Positions 4,148 through 27,830 of a stretch of DNA of 64,000 bases are shown piece after piece. Both the position numbers and the translations under genes were made by a program. The DNA comes from Enterococcus caccae ATCC BAA-1240 (GTDB taxonomy: Bacteria; Bacillota; Bacilli; Lactobacillales; Enterococcaceae), in contig NZ_KE136474.1 of assembly GCF_000407145.1 (NCBI RefSeq), forward strand, positions 186,001-250,000, read 5' to 3'. The notes beneath the pieces were generated by a model. That model worked only from the letters and a program-made list of their open reading frames with translations, had not been told where the DNA came from and did not search any database. How positions within the stretch are numbered: the stretch's first letter is position 1; each line of letters starts with the position of its first letter.

Positions 4148-6262
4148 TTATTTTTCTTTATTTTCTTCAGTCAATAAAGCTTTACGTGAAACGTTCACAC
4201 GACCTTGTTTATCGATTTCAGTAACTTTCACAAGCACTTCATCTCCAAGTTTCACGATATCTTCAACGTTGTTTACACGTTCATTCGCCAATTGAGAGAT
4301 ATGAACTAATCCGTCTTTTCCTTTGATCAGGTTAACGAAGGCGCCAAATTTTTCAATGCGAACAACTTTACCAAGGTAAACTTGTCCTACTTCAACTTCT
4401 TTTGTTAGCTCTTCAATGATCTTGATTGCTTTTTTGATCATATCTGCATCAGCAGAGGCAATACTTACATTACCTTCTTGATCGATATCGATCTTCACGC
4501 CAGTTTCATCAATGATTCCGTTAATTGTTTCTCCACCTTTACCAATAACATCTTTGATTTTAGCTGGAGCGATTTGAATCATTTCGATTTTCGGTGCATA
4601 TTTGCTTAACTCTGTACGGGGTTCAGCAATTGTTGACGTTAATTCTGCAAGAATTTCCATACGGGCTTTTTTCGCTTGAGTCAATGCTTCTGTTAAGATT
4701 TGTTCAGTAATTCCTTGGATTTTGATATCCATTTGTAAAGCTGTGATTCCGTCTTTTGTTCCAGCAACTTTAAAGTCCATATCGCCTAAATGATCTTCTA
4801 GTCCTTGAATATCTGTTAAGATCGTATAGTTTTCACCATCACTGACAAGTCCCATAGCAATTCCGGCAACTGGTGCTTTAATTGGTACACCTGCATCCAT
4901 CAATGCTAAGATGCCTGCACAGATACTTGCTTGTGAAGAAGAACCGTTAGATTCTAAAACTTCAGAAACCACACGAATCATGTAAGGGAAATCTGCTTCA
5001 CTCGGAATAACTTGTGCCATCGCACGCTCACCTAAAGCGCCGTGTCCGATTTCACGACGACCTGGAGATCCTGCACGACCTGTTGAACCAACAGAGAATT
5101 GCGGGAAGTTATAATGATGAATAAAACGTTTGCTGTCTTCTACGCCTAAACCATCAATGATTTGATGTTCACCAAGTGGTGCTAATGTTACAACAGACAA
5201 AGCTTGTGTTTGCCCACGGGTAAATAATCCAGAACCATGAACACGTGGCAAAATGCCAGTCTCTGAAGCCAACGGACGGATTTCATCTAGTTTACGACCA
5301 TCAGGACGGATTTTATCGATCGTGATCAATTCACGAACAACATCTTTTTCTAAGTCTTCAGCAATTTGTTTTACTTCTTTTGCTACTTGATCTGCATCTT
5401 CGTGGCCAGCAAATTTTTCAGCATACGCTTCTTTTAGCTGGTCTTTGATTGCATCAATGTTCACTTCACGAGCTAGTTTTTCTTCGGTCATTACCGCTTC
5501 TTTCATTGAAGCGTAGTAAGCATCAAAGATTTCTTTTTTCAAGTCAGCGTCAACTTGTAATAATTTGATTTCCATTTTTTCTTTGCCGACTGCGGCAACG
5601 ATTTCTTCTTGGAAAGCAACTAATTCTTTGATAGCGTCAAAACCGAATAATAAAGCGCCAAGCATATCTTCCTCAGATACTTCTTTTGCACCACTTTCAA
5701 CCATGTTGATTGCTTTTTTCGTTCCAGCAACGGTTAATTCGATATCTGTTTTTTCAGATTGTTCAACGGTTGGGTTCAATACATACTCCCCATCAACACG
5801 ACCTACATCCACACCTGCGATTGGTCCGTCAAATGGAATATCAGAAATTGCCAAAGCTAAAGACGATCCGAACATTGCAGCCATTTCTGGTGTGCAATCT
5901 TGTTCCACACTCATCACTGTATTTGTGATTTGAACTTCATTACGGAAACCTTCCGCAAACATTGGACGAATTGGACGATCAATCAAACGAGCTGTTAATG
6001 TTGCACGTTCACTTGGGCGGCCTTCACGTTTGATAAATCCACCTGGAATCTTTCCTACAGCGTACATTTTTTCTTCATAATTGACTGTTAACGGAAAGAA
6101 ATCAAAGTCGCGCGCATCTTTTGAAGCTACTGCTGCACTTAATACTACAGTATCTCCATAACGAACTAATACAGCTCCGTTTGCTTGTTTGGCCAATTGA
6201 CCAACTTCAACTTGTAGAGGACGTCCGCCCCAAGTTGTTTTGAACACTTGTTTTTCTGTCAT
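4148..6262 (-). CDS. pnp: polyribonucleotide nucleotidyltransferase (PNPase)
   Basis: PNPase is a cytoplasmic phosphorolytic 3'-5' exoribonuclease of the mRNA degradosome. At 704 residues it has the full family architecture: two RNase PH domains, a KH domain ([16 protein letters not shown]), and a C-terminal S1 domain ([15 protein letters not shown] through [12 protein letters not shown]). The start ATG at 6262 follows GGAGAAG. It sits downstream of rpsO on the same strand, the conserved bacterial rpsO-pnp order, but a good terminator-like hairpin separates the two (6430-6463). Confidence 0.98.
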
Positions 6263-6429
6263 ATATCTCTTCTCCTTCGATTCTTCGGAAAAGTTAGATT
6301 GCTACTAAACAAATGAAAAGATTCAAAAAAATTGAGTCCTTTTATTTGGTTAGTAGATTCATTCAAACTTTCCAAAGATGATGTTTTTTTGGTATTTTAA
6401 GGATACTCAACCTTTGCTTTTAAATAAGC

Positions 6430-18463: not shown

Positions 18464-18482
18464 AACTTTCCTCCTTGTAATT

Positions 18483-19079
18483 AAAGCTGAATGAGCCGAT
18501 TAGCATCGACGAAAAAATAGGAAAACATGGAAGTGACGCTCTTTGTCACATTCAGGTTTTATCTTTTTTCCGAGATTCTGGCTCATGAAGCTAGATAGTT
18601 TTTAAAGCTGAATGGGCTCGTTTAGCCTTGACTGAAAAATATGTTTGTGACGCTTTTTGTCACAGGCATATTTTATCTTTTTTCCGAAAGGCTAGCCCGT
18701 GAAGCTAGATAGTTTTTAAAGCTGACTGGGCTCGTTCAGGTTCGACAAGAAAATAGGAAAAATCGACTGTGACGCTTTTTGTCACAGGCATATTTTATCT
18801 TTTTTCCGAAAGGCTAGCCCATGAAGCTAGATAGTTTTTAAAGCTGAATGGGCTCGTTTAGATTCGACAAGAAAATAGGAAAAATTGACTGTGACGCTTT
18901 CTATCACTTTCTATTTTTATCTTTTTCTCGAGAACCTAGCTCATGAAGCTAGATAAATTTAAAAGCTGAATGGGCTTGATCAGGTTCGACAAGAAAATAG
19001 GAAAAATTGACTGTGACGCTTTTTGTCACTTTCTATTTTTATCTTTTTTCTCGAGAACCTAGCCCATGAAGCTAGATAG
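18483..19079. repeat. five tandem ~120 bp imperfect repeats between trpF and trpB
   Basis: Five units start at AAAGCTGA near 18483, 18604, 18718, 18840 and 18962 (spacing 121, 114, 122, 122). Each begins AAAGCTGAATGGGCTCG, has a central GTGACGCTTTTTGTCAC palindrome and ends AGCCCATGAAGCTAGATAG. The two ends are complementary (AGCTGAATGGGCT against AGCTTCATGGGCT), so a unit can fold into one long hairpin. The trpF stop codon TAG lies in the last unit. Related pieces occur at 30462-30537, 33220-33250 and 61240-61412. This is a MITE- or BIME-like family by structure. No protein is encoded. Confidence 0.85.
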
Positions 19080-21432: not shown

Positions 21433-22009
21433 AGTATGTTTCCTCCATTAGTTGGATAAAATTTTTGATGATTGCAGCTCCGCTTGGCGTTCCAATTGAT
21501 TCTGGATGAAATTGAAGCCCGAAGATCGGGTAGTCTTGATGCTCGATTGCCATGATTTCCTGATCATCTGTAGCTGTTGCTGTAATCAAAAATCCTTCAG
21601 GTATTGTTTTTGGATCAATGACCAGAGAATGATAACGCATCACAGAAGGGTCAAAATCCCTCTCTTTAAAAAGCTTACTATCTTTATGCGTCGTAATGAC
21701 TGACTGTTTACCATGTCGAATTTTTTTAGCTATTATCACTTGTGCGCCAAATACTTCTCCGATTGTTTGATGACCTAAACAAATCCCTAATAATGGTTTC
21801 TGTTGATAAAATTGTTGGATCACTTCTTTTACATAACCCGTTTCTGCTGGCGTTCCAGGACCTGGTGAAATAACAATTGCTGCAGCTTGTTCTGCTAGTT
21901 GAAAAATAGCATCTGAATCATTTCGAACGATCACTACTTCTTGTTCCTCCCCAATCAATTGGGCAAGATTATGTGTAAATGAATCATAATTATCAATTAA
22001 TAAAATCAT
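21425..22009 (-). CDS. trpG: anthranilate synthase component II (glutamine amidotransferase)
   Basis: TrpG supplies ammonia from glutamine to TrpE. The 194-residue class I amidotransferase begins ILLIDNYDSFTHNL. The nucleophile Cys is in GICLGHQTIGE, and the His-Glu pair is in LQFHPESIGTPSG. The ATG overlaps the trpE stop (ATGA). In some bacteria such a subunit also serves para-aminobenzoate synthesis; the operon position points to tryptophan. Confidence 0.96.
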   Translation of the reverse strand: MILLIDNYDSFTHNLAQLIGEEQEVVIVRNDSDAIFQLAEQAAAIVISPGPGTPAETGYVKEVIQQFYQQKPLLGICLGHQTIGEVFGAQVIIAKKIRHGKQSVITTHKDSKLFKERDFDPSVMRYHSLVIDPKTIPEGFLITATATDDQEIMAIEHQDYPIFGLQFHPESIGTPSGAAIIKNFIQLMEETYYA

Positions 22010-23370
22010 TTTCCCACCTCCAAAAGTGCTTTGGCTTTTTGTAACGTCTCTTCATATTCCTTTGTAGGCTCAGAATCATAAACAATACCTGCACCGGCTT
22101 GGACATATGCTTTATTTTTATGGATGACCATTGTTCGAATCGCGATAGCAAAATCCGCCTGGTCATTTTTCGATAAATAGCCCACTGCACCAGCATAGAT
22201 GTTTCGTTTGACTGGCTCGATTTCGTAAATACGCTGCATTGCTCGGATTTTCGGTGCACCGCTAACTGTTCCTGCAGGTAATGTTGATTTTAATGCATCC
22301 ATTGCAGTCAATTCTTGTTTTAGTTTTCCAGTCACGACTGAAACTAGATGCATCACAAATCGATATTTCTCGACAATCATATAGACAGGTACTTCAACAG
22401 AACCGATTTCACTGACTTTTCCTACATCGTTACGACCTAAATCGATCAACATCAAGTGTTCTGCACGTTCCTTTTCATCTGTGAGTAGTTCTTGTTCTAA
22501 GGTTGCATCTTGCTCCACTGTTTGTCCTCTTTTACGCGTTCCTGCTATTGGATTAGTTGTGACGAGTTGATTTTTCACACTAACTAAACTTTCTGGCGAA
22601 GAACCGATAACGTAAGTTTCACCAAAATCTAGGAAATACAGGTAAGTTGAAGGATTAGTAACACGTAATCTGCGGTAATAATCAAACGGCTCTTCTTCAA
22701 AATCAGCTGTCAAACGTTGTGAAGGAACCATTTGAAATAGGTCTCCTTGTTTGATATAGCCTTTGATTTTGGCGACGGCTGCTTCAAAACTCGCTTGTGT
22801 GAAGTTGCTTTGATAAGTTAAATTTTTTAAACGCAGCTCTTTTTGTTCGTCTTCACTTGGTGTTTGTAGTTCTTTTATTTTTCGAGTGATTGCTTCTTTT
22901 AATGCCTCTTCACTTCGATTTGAATAGCTATCAGCTTCGACCAAAAAGATTTTTTCCCCAACATGATCAAAGATCAAGTAAGAGTCAAACAAATAAAAAT
23001 GAATATCAGGAACATTCAACTCATCAAAAGGAGGCTGCCCTAAGTCTTCATAACAAGCAATCACATCATAGCCAACATAGCCGATTGCCCCACCTTGAAA
23101 GGGTAATTCTTCTGAAATTTCTTCTTTTTTCAAGACATGTTTTTCGATTTCTTTCAGTGGATCTTTTGCTGTGACTCTTTTTCCATCAATCGTTAGTTCG
23201 TGACCATAACAAGTGATTTCAGAGACCGCATCCCAAGCAATGATCGAATAGCGTCCTTTGCTTTTATCTCTAGGAATGCTTTCTAAAAGGCATTTGTTTG
23301 TTCCTTGAATTCTTAAAAAGGCGGATATCGCCGTTAGATAATCTGCTTGGATTTCTTTGATCAATTGCAT
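22006..23370 (-). CDS. trpE: anthranilate synthase component I
   Basis: TrpE converts chorismate to anthranilate. The 454-residue protein has the tryptophan-binding LLES motif at residues 28-31, expected to give feedback inhibition. The C-terminal chorismate-binding domain includes ESLVSV, NPIAGTRKRG, DLGRNDVGKV and TLPAGTVSGAPKIRAM. It is the first gene of the operon. Between its ATG and the last T-box terminator lie about 390 bp, mostly four 78 bp repeats. Confidence 0.97.
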   Translation of the reverse strand: MQLIKEIQADYLTAISAFLRIQGTNKCLLESIPRDKSKGRYSIIAWDAVSEITCYGHELTIDGKRVTAKDPLKEIEKHVLKKEEISEELPFQGGAIGYVGYDVIACYEDLGQPPFDELNVPDIHFYLFDSYLIFDHVGEKIFLVEADSYSNRSEEALKEAITRKIKELQTPSEDEQKELRLKNLTYQSNFTQASFEAAVAKIKGYIKQGDLFQMVPSQRLTADFEEEPFDYYRRLRVTNPSTYLYFLDFGETYVIGSSPESLVSVKNQLVTTNPIAGTRKRGQTVEQDATLEQELLTDEKERAEHLMLIDLGRNDVGKVSEIGSVEVPVYMIVEKYRFVMHLVSVVTGKLKQELTAMDALKSTLPAGTVSGAPKIRAMQRIYEIEPVKRNIYAGAVGYLSKNDQADFAIAIRTMVIHKNKAYVQAGAGIVYDSEPTKEYEETLQKAKALLEVGK

Positions 23371-23431
23371 GTGATTTCCTCTTTTCTAGTTTTTTTGTTT
23401 TAGGGTTTGATAGGAGCGAAACTTGGTGTAG

Positions 23432-23745
23432 TGATTCGCTAGTACGGTTACTTCTCTCGCTTTGCTCGCCAAGTACTGTTCATCATCTACTCTGGCATTG
23501 CCAGTCGTTGTGATTCCTAGTATGGTTACTTCTCTCACTTCGGTCGCCAAGTACTGTTCAGCATCTACTCTGGCATTGCCAGTCGTAGTGATTCCTAGTA
23601 TGGTTACTTCTCTCACTTCGGTCGCCAAGTACTGTTCATCATCTACTCTGGCATTGCCAGTCATAGTGATTCCTAGTATGGTTACTTCTCTCACTTCGGT
23701 CGCCAAGTACTGTTCAGCATCTACTCTGGCATTGCCAGTCGTAGT
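23432..23745. repeat. four tandem 78 bp repeats between the trp T-box leader and trpE
   Basis: Units begin with TGATTC at 23432, 23511, 23589, 23667 and a truncated fifth at 23745 (spacing 79, 78, 78, 78). The minus-strand unit reads GAGAGAAGTAACC, TACTAGGAATCAC, a ~27-nt spacer with CTGGCAATGCCAG, TGAACAG and TTGGCGACC. The same order of blocks occurs in the Stem I half of the adjacent T-box (23846-23930) and in two copies at 27325-27541. The unit is divisible by three and so leaves open frames on both strands, which I regard as accidental. Confidence 0.9.
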
Positions 23746-23759
23746 GATTCACAGCAAAA

Positions 23760-23977
23760 AGCCCTCACAAAACAGACTTCTATCTGTTTTGTGAGGGCGA
23801 ATAATAGTATCCACGGTACCACCTCAATGAAAAAAATTCTTTTATCGTAACCTTGGAATCGCTGTTCACTATTGATCAGTTGGGATCAGAGTGTTTGGTG
23901 ATTTCTAGTAAGGTTACTTCTCTCTCCTTAGCACACCTTTTACTGTAAACCACTTTTTTCATGCTTTACAATAAAAT
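23760..23977 (-). promoter_or_regulatory. second trp T-box leader (degenerate Stem I)
   Basis: The minus strand has the T-box core GAGGTGGTACCGTGG (23811-23826). A strong terminator follows: GCCCTCACAAAACAGA with TCTGTTTTGTGAGGGC (23761-23798), then TTTTT. Stem I is shortened. AGTAACCTT pairs with AAGGTTAC, and no UGG is found where the specifier should lie. It may be uncharged-tRNA-insensitive, or may act as an ordinary attenuator or a relic of duplication. Confidence 0.75.
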
Positions 23978-24243
23978 AAGCCCCCAAACCACACAAAATC
24001 TGTGGTTTGAGGGCGAATAATTCACGGTGCCACCTCAAGTTTGAAAGAAATTCTTTCCTCTTATCAGTCGTCTATCAACGACCTTACTCTATAACGGGAG
24101 TTCCCGAAAATGCCTACTAAGGTTCAACATTTTGCTCGAAAGTCCATTCACAACCCATCCCTTACTGATTCGCAGTCCCATCAGCTCTCTGAAAAGTTCC
24201 AGTGTTGTTACTCCTCTTTCTCAAAGCTTTACTATTGAGGATA
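23978..24243 (-). promoter_or_regulatory. first trp T-box riboswitch, tRNA-Trp specifier UGG
   Basis: This is a full T-box leader. Stem I has AGTA opposite GAA-UGG-A, with UGG at 24144-24146, between helices ACAAC/GTTGT and GAAAG/CTTTC. The antiterminator core is GAGGTGGCACCGTG (24023-24037). The terminator stem is GCCCCCAAACCACA with TGTGGTTTGAGGGC (23980-24014). Uncharged tRNA-Trp should stabilise the antiterminator and allow trp transcription. It is followed by a second, degenerate T-box. Confidence 0.88.
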
Positions 24244-25539: not shown

Positions 25540-27186
25540 TTAATCTTCTAAATAGGCTGTTCTCAGATTGAAATAATCACCATATAAGTGATAGCTGATT
25601 CCTTTGATTTTTGAGTTGATCAAGTAGTTAGATGCACTTTGATAAAGCGGTACTTGCGCTGCATCTTGATCTAGTAAAATATCTTCTGCTTCTTTGTAGT
25701 TATCAAATTGTTTACTCGGTTTATTGGCATTCACCGTACGTGCATCTGTGATCAGTTTATCGTAGTCAGTATTTTTATATGACCCATAATTATAAGCAGA
25801 TTCTCCAGCATATAAATTAAAGTAAGAATCTAAATCACTGCTACCTGCGATCCAACCAGATAACGATAGTTCGTAGTCTTTATCTTTACGCGTTTGTAAA
25901 ACATTATTTTTTGGTTGCGCATTGATTGTGATTTCGATACCTTTTAAGTTTTCTTGCAATTGACTTTGGACATATTCTGAGATTTTCTTTCCATTATCAT
26001 CGTCAGAAACTAAAAGCGATAACTTGATTTTATCTCCTAGATCAGCTTTGGCTTTTTCCCACTCTGCTTGTGCTTTTTTTACGTCATGAACTAAATGGTC
26101 ACCACTAAATTTTCTAAAGTCTTCAGAAGTTTCAGGATTTTTGTAAAGGTTACTTGGAATCAAGCCATTTAATGGTTTTGATCCATCGTTTAGCACGTTT
26201 TTGGTTAAGGCATCTTTGTCGATTGCTTGGGCGATCGCTTTTCTAAGATGGATATTTGCTGGCGCTGTTCCTTCTTTTTTATTGAAATCTAAATAATAAT
26301 TGGCAACATCTGAATGTGTGACATAGCCTGCATCGTCGCTATATTGTTGAACATATTGACCACTGATCCGAACTAGATCCAACTCATTTGACTGGTATAA
26401 ATTAATCCCGGTATTCTCTTCTTTGATTGTATTGACTTTGACCTCTTCTAGTTTTACTTTATCAGCATCATAATATTCAGAATTTTTCTTTAATGTCCAT
26501 GTATCTGATGATGCATCCCAGTCAGTTAAGATAAACGGTCCACTATAAATCAAATGGTCGCTGTCTGTCGCATAATCTTTGCCTTGTTTTTCAACATAAG
26601 CTTGATTTTGTGGTGCTAACCAACCAATCGATACGACTGTTAAAAATGATGGCTGTGCCTGTTCTAATGTGACCTCAAATTCTTTATCACTTGGTGCGGA
26701 TAGACCGATTTCGTCTACTGATTTTTCACCATTGCGAATTGCCTTGCTATTTTTTACATTGTCTAACAAGTATGCATTTGGTCCGATTGTTGCTGGTGTT
26801 ACTAATTTTTTCCACGAATATAGAAAGTCTTGAGCTGTAATCGGCTCGCCATTGCTCCATTTTATGTTATCTTTTAATGTAAATTTATACGTTAAACCAT
26901 CTTCGCTGATTTCTGCTTTTTCTGCTAGTCCTGGAATTGGTGTACTGTCGTCATCAAAACGATACAGTCCTTCAAAAAGATGCTGAACGATCGTAAAGGT
27001 GTTTTTATCCATTGTTTGTGTTGTATCTAAAGTCGAAAGCGGTGCTGGTGAACTGATTTCGATTTTTTGACTTGCCGCGATTGTCCCGTCTTCGCTTTTA
27101 GTCGTTTCTTTTTTATCGTTGCCCCCACATGCTGTTAGTAATAATCCCGTTAATACTGCACTTACGACTAATAACTTTTTCTTCAT
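25540..27186 (-). CDS. oligopeptide ABC transporter substrate-binding lipoprotein (OppA family)
   Basis: A 548-residue SBP family 5 protein. The start is ATG 27186 (MKKKLLVVSAVLTG) behind AGGGGGAA. The signal peptide ends in the lipobox LTAC, so the protein is lipid-anchored outside the membrane. SNGEPITAQDFLYSWKKLV and HLRKAIAQAIDKDAL are typical of OppA. No permease or ATPase genes accompany it, so it probably feeds the oppDFBCA system at 49.9-55.6 kb or another. It is preceded by a T-box leader and followed by pepT. Confidence 0.93.
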   Translation of the reverse strand: MKKKLLVVSAVLTGLLLTACGGNDKKETTKSEDGTIAASQKIEISSPAPLSTLDTTQTMDKNTFTIVQHLFEGLYRFDDDSTPIPGLAEKAEISEDGLTYKFTLKDNIKWSNGEPITAQDFLYSWKKLVTPATIGPNAYLLDNVKNSKAIRNGEKSVDEIGLSAPSDKEFEVTLEQAQPSFLTVVSIGWLAPQNQAYVEKQGKDYATDSDHLIYSGPFILTDWDASSDTWTLKKNSEYYDADKVKLEEVKVNTIKEENTGINLYQSNELDLVRISGQYVQQYSDDAGYVTHSDVANYYLDFNKKEGTAPANIHLRKAIAQAIDKDALTKNVLNDGSKPLNGLIPSNLYKNPETSEDFRKFSGDHLVHDVKKAQAEWEKAKADLGDKIKLSLLVSDDDNGKKISEYVQSQLQENLKGIEITINAQPKNNVLQTRKDKDYELSLSGWIAGSSDLDSYFNLYAGESAYNYGSYKNTDYDKLITDARTVNANKPSKQFDNYKEAEDILLDQDAAQVPLYQSASNYLINSKIKGISYHLYGDYFNLRTAYLED

Positions 27187-27304
27187 TTTGTTTCCCCCTT
27201 CAGTATCTGTATACATTAACTACTCCTACCTTTTTGTGTAGATGTCAGAAAAGCTGAGTATTGTTTATCATCGAATCACTTTGTTCTTCGTGTTTTACAA
27301 CAAT

Positions 27305-27541
27305 GAGTTCGAAACGAAGGCCCGTGATTCACTAGTATGGTCACTTCTCTCCCTTTGCACGCCTTGTATTGTTCATCATCTACTCTGGCGGATCCCTGTC
27401 AGAGGCCTTCCATTCTTTAAGTTTTTGCTCTTAGAATTTGGGAGTTCGAAACGGAGTACCGTGATTCACTAGTATGGGCACTTCTCTCCCTTTGGTCGCC
27501 AAGTATTGTTCATCATCTACTCTGGCGGAGCCAATCGTAGT
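27305..27541. repeat. two copies of the T-box-associated repeat module upstream of the peptide-binding gene
   Basis: Copies start TGATTCACTAGTATGG at 27325 and 27462, each preceded by GAGTTCGAAACG (27305, 27443), giving a 137 bp period. The second runs into TGATTCACAAC at 27541. They match the four 78 bp repeats at 23432-23745. The stretch GTGATTCACTAGTATGG, then ACTTCTCTC, also matches part of the second trp T-box. The whole array lies between a T-box terminator and the start codon, as in trp. Confidence 0.85.
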
Positions 27542-27551
27542 GATTCACAAC

Positions 27552-27830
27552 AAAAAAACTCCCATCCTACTAAAAGGACGAGAGTTTTAAACTTTCGCGG
27601 TACCACCTTCAATTGACTTTATAAAAAGTCCACTCTTTCAGTACAACCATACTGAGGCGCTATAACAGGCGCACCTGAATTGATCTCAACGTATTCGATC
27701 AATTTGTTCAAAGGCCATTTTCTTTTCCAACTTCGCTATCTCTTCCCACCAACAGAGACTCTCTTTAAGCTATCTGAAAAATACTTTCCTTATCTTCACA
27801 TTTAATTTTAATAGATAATGTATTACAAGG
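27552..27830 (-). promoter_or_regulatory. T-box riboswitch upstream of peptide-binding protein and pepT
   Basis: The minus strand has the T-box core GGTGGTACCGCG (27596-27607), a terminator stem with TTTTTTT (27552-27588), and an AGTA loop with CAGATAGC in Stem I. The specifier side reads GAAAATGGCCTTT. It can be read as UGG (27715-27717) or as AUG followed by a purine (27716-27718). AUG fits the usual purine after the specifier better; UGG would match the neighbouring trp leader. Tryptophan and methionine are both possible. Confidence 0.85.

Follow-up and report, generated by a model that had tools for sequence, protein, structure and literature searches.

The 78-bp repeat unit that lies in tandem ahead of trpE in Enterococcus caccae ATCC BAA-1240 belongs to a family of dispersed hairpin elements in Enterococcus. 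The array itself is very probably the result of local tandem amplification of this one modular family member, and we take this to be the identity and anatomy in the best explanation. A typical copy begins within the U-run of a stem-loop that was already there, in many cases an intrinsic terminator, and contributes a conserved hairpin oriented along transcription. Both terminators of the trp leader have the element docked to them, one diverged copy at the first and four copies at the second.

The trp leader and its tandem array

Coordinates refer to the window, by which we mean the whole stretch of 64,000 nucleotides that was analyzed. Copies of the element were located with R1, a covariance model built from A1, an alignment of 20 first copies (17 from this genome and three from the trp leaders of relatives). 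Read 5' to 3', the trp leader holds a complete T-box, a terminator, a block of shared motifs, a second antiterminator with its terminator, the array, and trpE:

24006-24233, minus strand: first trp T-box, complete (RF00230, 131.2 bits; specifier TGG (Trp), read by eye)
23980-24014, minus strand: terminator of the first trp T-box, where the single element copy docks (terminator scan)
23897-23977, minus strand: one element copy, diverged, that follows the first trp terminator and was originally described as the Stem I part of the second T-box (R1, 34.2 bits, E 5e-7, model positions 1-97)
23761-23860, minus strand: second T-box, lacking Stem I, with a stem III-like remnant, the antiterminator GAGGTGGTACCGTG, and a terminator (RF00230, 26.4 bits)
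23798-23761, minus strand: second trp terminator (terminator scan)
23428-23750, minus strand: four-copy tandem element array, behind the second trp terminator and before trpE (Tandem Repeats Finder and four R1 matches in the genome search)
22006-23370, minus strand: trpE, the first gene behind the array (TIGR00564, 596 bits, cut-off 517.7)

Tandem Repeats Finder resolves the array into 4.1 copies of the 78-bp unit (95% matches, 0% indels), confirming the four units that the original prediction had placed between the last T-box terminator and trpE, with bounds of 23428-23750 in place of 23432-23745. The matches listed for the array in the window-level R1 search are 23665-23760 (104.6 bits) and 23430-23522 (79.3 bits) only. 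The 13-mer GAGAGAAGTAACC occurs exactly, on the minus strand, at 23446, 23524, 23602, 23680, and 23912 (the last copy covering 23912-23924); with up to two mismatches the window holds seven matches against 1.37 expected, and seven were reached in none of 100 shuffles. The claim that the array shares a block with the region ahead of the second T-box therefore held up against a shuffled control, and the fifth copy of the 13-mer does precede a second antiterminator and terminator, as had been described. The block is shared because 23897-23977 is itself a full-length, diverged copy of the element.

The second trp T-box has no Stem I and amounts to half a module. Its RF00230 score of 26.4 bits compares with a cut-off of 93, and Stem I is misaligned; the 3' part alone aligns confidently, with broken pairs and low posterior values further 5'. 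In none of the nine named relatives does the second trp T-box exceed the RF00230 cut-off, and the antiterminator motif occurs twice in all ten trp leaders, as GAGGTGGCACCGTG in the first module and GAGGTGGTACCGTG in the second. These three observations lead us to the half-module assignment. In each of the ten leaders GAGGTGGTACCGTG is followed by a terminator, recognized by pattern, so that an antiterminator with a competing terminator is present throughout, at 50 to 269 nt from the first terminator to the second antiterminator. The base after TGG is consistently C in the first module and T in the second in all ten. Between the two T-box motifs, R1 matches were found in eight of the nine named relatives (L053-L059 and L061; 18.1 to 55.0 bits, the weakest being L058 at 18.1 bits and E 0.033). 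The ninth, Enterococcus sp. 5H (L060), has no R1 match between the two motifs, and its second antiterminator lies 50 nt behind the first terminator.

These results bear on two other readings of the array. According to one, a T-box Stem I was amplified behind its own terminator and provides the 5' UTR of trpE with additional sites for tRNA binding, and the GAGAGAAGTAACC and TACTAG(G)AATCAC blocks common to the array and the region upstream of the second T-box speak for it. The unit is nevertheless found at many sites free of T-boxes, the block that precedes the second T-box is an element copy of full length, where Stem I is unsupported, and L060 has a second antiterminator without the block. 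The repeat unit also lacks the Stem I and overall architecture of RF00230, with no match in the array either at the gathering score or, for the array-bearing locus L025, at E<=0.1; tRNA binding by the element copies finds no support. Duplication of Stem I is rejected in view of the dispersed family, the element copy at 23897-23977, and the failed Stem I alignment, which leaves this reading a negligible probability. The original proposal that the sensing half of a T-box was amplified behind its terminator is accordingly not supported, since the unit belongs to a family that also occupies sites without a T-box. The companion proposal, of a dispersed hairpin recruited as Stem I, was right about the dispersed hairpin; nothing shows a Stem I function, and the antiterminator of L060 stands without the element. 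The other reading takes the array to encode a repeat peptide, the 78 bp being 26 codons with the frame open throughout: an ORF at 23386-23706 (minus strand, 106 aa) has a TTG start, and the array of G018 is open too. That start lies inside the repeat, however, with no ribosome-binding site by eye, and other arrays of the family are spaced 79, 135-139, and 145-147 bp, not all multiples of three. We reject this highly improbable coding repeat and regard the open frame as likely due to chance.

Elsewhere, another tandem repeat of five copies of about 122 bp occupies 18481-19079 of the window, between trpF and trpB (names by eye). This repeat type (TTATCTAGCTTC..GCTAG, GTGACAAAAAGCGTCAC) was partly seen at L075 and L077 and also behind serS-like T-boxes of G001 and G017. 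At 6085-6392, plus strand, the window matches the Listeria sRNA rliD (RF01494; 69.9 bits, cut-off 50).

A dispersed family often docked behind stem-loops

When used as a DNA query against its own genome, the array unit gave 50 matches, many at distant loci, and R1 gave 71 at E<=0.1. At E<=0.001, among the matches listed, 24 of 41 genomes contain at least one match, including all 22 of Enterococcus (this one included) and two of the 19 others; the other 21 genomes of the genus have six to 76 each among the matches listed. The consensus consists of a 5' arm, TTG(C/T)TGTGAATCACTAC, a 3' arm, GTAGATGATGAACA(G/A)TAC, and a 3' domain, at the end of which many copies have a second (GT)GAATCAC. This end repeat is the likely seed of tandem copies. 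The weak R1 matches L081, L082, L084, and L086 have in common a near-identical longer repeat (TCGGAAATAAG..ATTGCTGTAAAACACAACGAGGAA).

Plasmid-borne spread was rejected, with no match among 72,556 plasmid records. Four of 50,697 phage records match (L063-L066), all without annotation. L063 carries rplA- and rplJ-like genes, L064 glyQ, and L065 a T-box recognized by eye; the sequence of L066 is identical to that of L063 for 300 bases around the match. On account of these host genes, the T-box, and that identity, we read the four records as host DNA in lysate assemblies and not as phage carriage. Both the contig L064, labeled as E. faecalis, and L065, labeled as an Enterococcus phage, contain the family. 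In L064 the element is flanked by a T-box terminator, identified by eye, and glyQ.

To describe docking we used 38 first-copy sites in the genome of E. caccae, obtained from the 71 matches by removing 27 later array copies and six matches at E>0.001. A hairpin with a score of at least 9 lies directly upstream of 24 of the 38, where letter-shuffled flanks would give 1.1. R1 itself was built in part from 17 of these 38 sites, and it favors docked copies because the T-run is included in it. The 14 sites without a clear upstream hairpin include two in a tRNA cluster. In that cluster (L021, G000:C2:800-2500), two near-identical stretches carry one element each between tRNA genes, with no evident terminator.

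Half of the docked sites (12/24) are attenuators. Those of the T-box type belong to leuS, argS, hisS, ileS, an OppA-like gene, and one further T-box, together with both trp terminators; the remainder are two M-boxes (of six), the L10 leader, and the FMN riboswitch. The genome was counted as having 33 attenuator terminators of the T-box, M-box, FMN, and L10 classes, other riboswitch classes being left out: 24 T-boxes (E<=1e-10), six M-boxes, one FMN, one L10, and the second trp terminator. By chance, 12 attenuators among 24 sites would have a P of 4e-5 if the genome held 200 terminators, 5e-7 with 300, and 2e-12 with 890, the figure of about 890 being an extrapolation from 15 strong hairpins (at least 11 pairs) in 60 kb scanned. 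NCBIfam backs the names argS, leuS, hisS, ileS, glyQ, rplJ, and trpE, for the first four through short N-terminal pieces that score below the whole-protein cut-off; other gene names were given by eye from translations. The OppA-like leader also lies in the window:

27571-27805, minus strand: T-box ahead of the OppA-like lipoprotein gene (RF00230, 133.2 bits)
27460-27556, minus strand: element copy docked at the terminator of this T-box (R1, 114.6 bits)
27323-27419, minus strand: further element copy (R1, 33.9 bits)
27253-27302: partial third element match (R1, 22.9 bits)
25540-27216: OppA-like lipoprotein gene (best match is an OppA model, below its cut-off)

The same association was seen across five genomes. 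An element at E<=0.001 lies 12-49 nt downstream of at least 40 of 122 T-boxes, on the same strand (G000 7/24, G001 at least 8/25, G011 8/25, G017 at least 9/24, G018 8/24), and upstream on the same strand of two of the 122 among the matches listed. On the opposite strand the matches listed include none downstream and none upstream of the 122. Merged element sites in these genomes number at least 226, of which at least 40 are behind T-boxes. The original prediction had allowed for a generic repeat, present at many places unrelated to T-boxes, that invaded the leader: many sites are indeed unrelated, yet T-boxes are strongly over-represented. Since 82 of the 122 T-boxes have no element at E<=0.001 among the matches listed, the element is not needed for T-box control.

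Occupancy was compared, from coordinates, in 18 ortholog groups, defined as T-box groups present once in each of the five genomes. Among the matches listed, 14 of the 18 are occupied in all genomes or in none, against a shuffled mean of 2.2 and a value as high in none of 2000 shuffles. The argS, ileS, hisS, and OppA-like T-boxes are filled in all five genomes and ten groups in none, again among the matches listed, and the remaining four are filled in one, two, four, and four of the five. The trp group was split in clustering (G018 apart); its first terminator is filled in all five genomes. Four loci of E. caccae (L031, L032, L038, and L048) were clustered in stored orientation, and three of them joined their orthologs, L032 being the exception. 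The gly T-box group of the five genomes has no element among the matches listed. Occupancy that is consistent over species shows old residence; function is not proved by that alone.

Other sites vary. The second trp terminator is empty in three of the nine named relatives (quebecensis, moraviensis, and termitis), with 35-36 nt to trpE, and filled in the other six and in the window, with 135-528 nt; the array behind it ranges from one copy (L055) to nine (G018). The L10 leader, judged by eye, is filled in ten of 15 genomes of the genus (G014 being doubtful) and empty in five, and the hairpin is therefore dispensable there. Filled and empty versions of one site, as looked for in a mobile element, are thus both present, in a comparison that does not tell loss from gain. 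By eye, the 5' arm of some filled L10 sites (leaders L089-L107) resembles the sequence of empty sites, and the resemblance is as if the 3' arm of the element matched a host target.

Pairing of the stem and possible roles of the hairpin

The stem of the element at single loci changes by paired substitutions. On A1, RNAalifold predicts one stem of 19 pairs, beginning in the T-run, in which eight pairs have double-sided changes (eight reached in one of 500 shuffles) and 96.0% of cells pair; this percentage and the covariation score were reached by none of 500 shuffles, and the number of pair types was not above them (343/500). The L10 leader stem alone, in an alignment of nine distinct filled leaders (eight genus rows and L063, with G014 left out), has double changes in seven of 16 pairs, a count reached in two of 500 shuffles, and 86.8% of its cells are paired against 75.3 in shuffles. 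Again none of 500 shuffles reached the percentage or the score, and the pair-type number was not above them (258/500); when the partner was shifted by one, two, or three columns, no more than 47.8% of cells paired. Alignment A3, which was fitted to the model, covers 11 orthologous loci in 51 distinct rows, two of which (L117 and L198) are remnants of deletion and contain few letters. In it, 839 of 875 cells are paired. Double changes occur at 32 pair positions; shuffling within loci gave 14.4 (sd 2.6), and none of 1000 shuffles reached 32. Among the 11, the valS and thrS loci have no double changes.

The shuffles in these tests do not remove the relatedness of the copies. The paired substitutions could be due partly to re-insertion or to gene conversion between the subtypes TTGT/ACAA and CTGT/ACAG, and in the argS or ileS stems exchange of a whole subtype could pass for compensation. 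Such exchange is less of a concern for the L10, cluster-1, and metN-like stems, since their letters depart from the usual family consensus. Compared with shuffles, single copies have only a moderate folding advantage, with z of -1.8 for the trp unit and -2.3, -2.9, and -5.8 for three others. In the metN-like T-box leader of E. caccae (L037), the post-terminator hairpin appears by eye as a near-perfect palindrome that includes the T-run (CTTTTTGCATGTTCAACATCA..TGATGTTGAACATGCAAAAAG).

Our tentative reading is that the post-terminator hairpin is a module of leader RNA on T-box, M-box, FMN, and L10 attenuators, present only in read-through transcripts, spread as a repeat, and selected locus by locus. 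The elements would have spread by a mobile-element-like process that recognizes stem-loops, and they may multiply locally through their GAATCAC end repeats. In leaders, the hairpin would act only in RNA made after read-through of the attenuator, and such an action might be why elements are retained there. A role as RNA in read-through mRNA seems possible, if short of probable. The most likely effect of a 5'-UTR hairpin would be to set the processing or stability of that mRNA, a proposal that we make with some reserve and on the model of 5' hairpins in Gram-positive mRNAs.

A repeat that is purely selfish has about the same probability as an RNA role. It would be an EFAR-type miniature element inserting beside stem-loops, with a hairpin that serves its own spread and has no host function, a credible reading in which the excess of attenuators might come from highly transcribed genes or from 5' leaders that tolerate insertion. 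Dispersal, modularity, variable copy number, and empty and filled sites between species are all in keeping with it, and several occupied sites follow genes that are usually highly expressed, such as rpmH, metK, atpE, tRNA genes, and a cspA-like gene (named by eye and by Rfam, the match of the cspA-like gene being below cut-off). Fixed copies of a selfish repeat would, however, be expected to decay, yet the L10, cluster-1, and metN-like stems have kept their pairing while moving away from the family consensus. T-box occupancy that is consistent over five species also speaks against it, although vertical inheritance alone would give the same. The hairpin might instead tune read-through of the attenuator, by weakening the pairing of the U-run or by stopping RNA polymerase from backtracking. 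An effect on U-run pairing is conceivable because the 5' arm begins in the U-run: a T-run column starts the stem in all 20 copies of A1 (columns 5-59 and 6-58 paired), and the stem of the metN-like leader in E. caccae appears by eye to cover the whole T-run. We consider tuning unlikely, as the hairpin forms only once the polymerase is past the terminator, only one U of the run is paired in the consensus, and ordinary gene-end stem-loops precede elements as well.

Should selection act on the hairpin, many unrelated riboswitch-type leaders would have received the same 5'-UTR part from one repeat family, and this would be a way for mobile repeats to give rise to regulatory RNA. Leaders that carry the element offer a test bed for events downstream of an attenuator after read-through, and the one to nine copies behind the second trp terminator form a natural series on leader hairpins and mRNA fate.

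Comparison with known leaders and repeats

The trp leader is like the T-box class (RF00230) in having one complete T-box with an extra antiterminator and terminator, and differs from it in the repeat unit, which matches no T-box part. The trp leaders can be described as partially tandem T-boxes with one sensor and two terminators; the passage of a 2020 review that deals with partially tandem T-boxes calls their mode of action unknown (PMC7583486). Among the matches listed from a partial literature (titles and starts of abstracts), there was no report of repeats docked behind T-boxes or other attenuators. Because this coverage is partial, the absence of reports argues only weakly for novelty; E. 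faecalis is already known to have families of hairpin repeats, and the docking behind attenuators is what may be new.

BOX and REP/BIME sequences are dispersed intergenic hairpins, modular or clustered, and in these respects they are like the element; to our knowledge, docking at the U-run of an attenuator in one orientation has not been described for them. Group IIC introns and some insertion sequences insert immediately beside intrinsic terminators, a position that they share with the element, whose copies are about 100 bp and show no obvious coding sequence or ribozyme.

The best identity for the family is an EFAR/Efa-1-like modular hairpin repeat, likened by description, which docks at terminators and which leaders retain. 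The EFAR repeats of Venditti et al. 2007 are said to show modular assembly, with palindromic, stem-loop-forming sequences as integration targets, and we know of no report of EFAR being over-represented at leader attenuators. Efa-1, a hairpin repeat of E. faecalis, is given in the relevant row as '163, 65 (18)', which we take as length and number, and as 'a pair of adjacent SLSs', in a source that also names BOX and PU-BIME (Petrillo et al. 2008, PMC2267715). In these portions of its description, EFAR/Efa-1 is like the element in belonging to Enterococcus, in lying between genes, and in forming dozens of stem-loop copies, a trait that the present family has. The difference, as far as descriptions can be compared, is that here the terminators are intact and leader attenuators are strongly over-represented.
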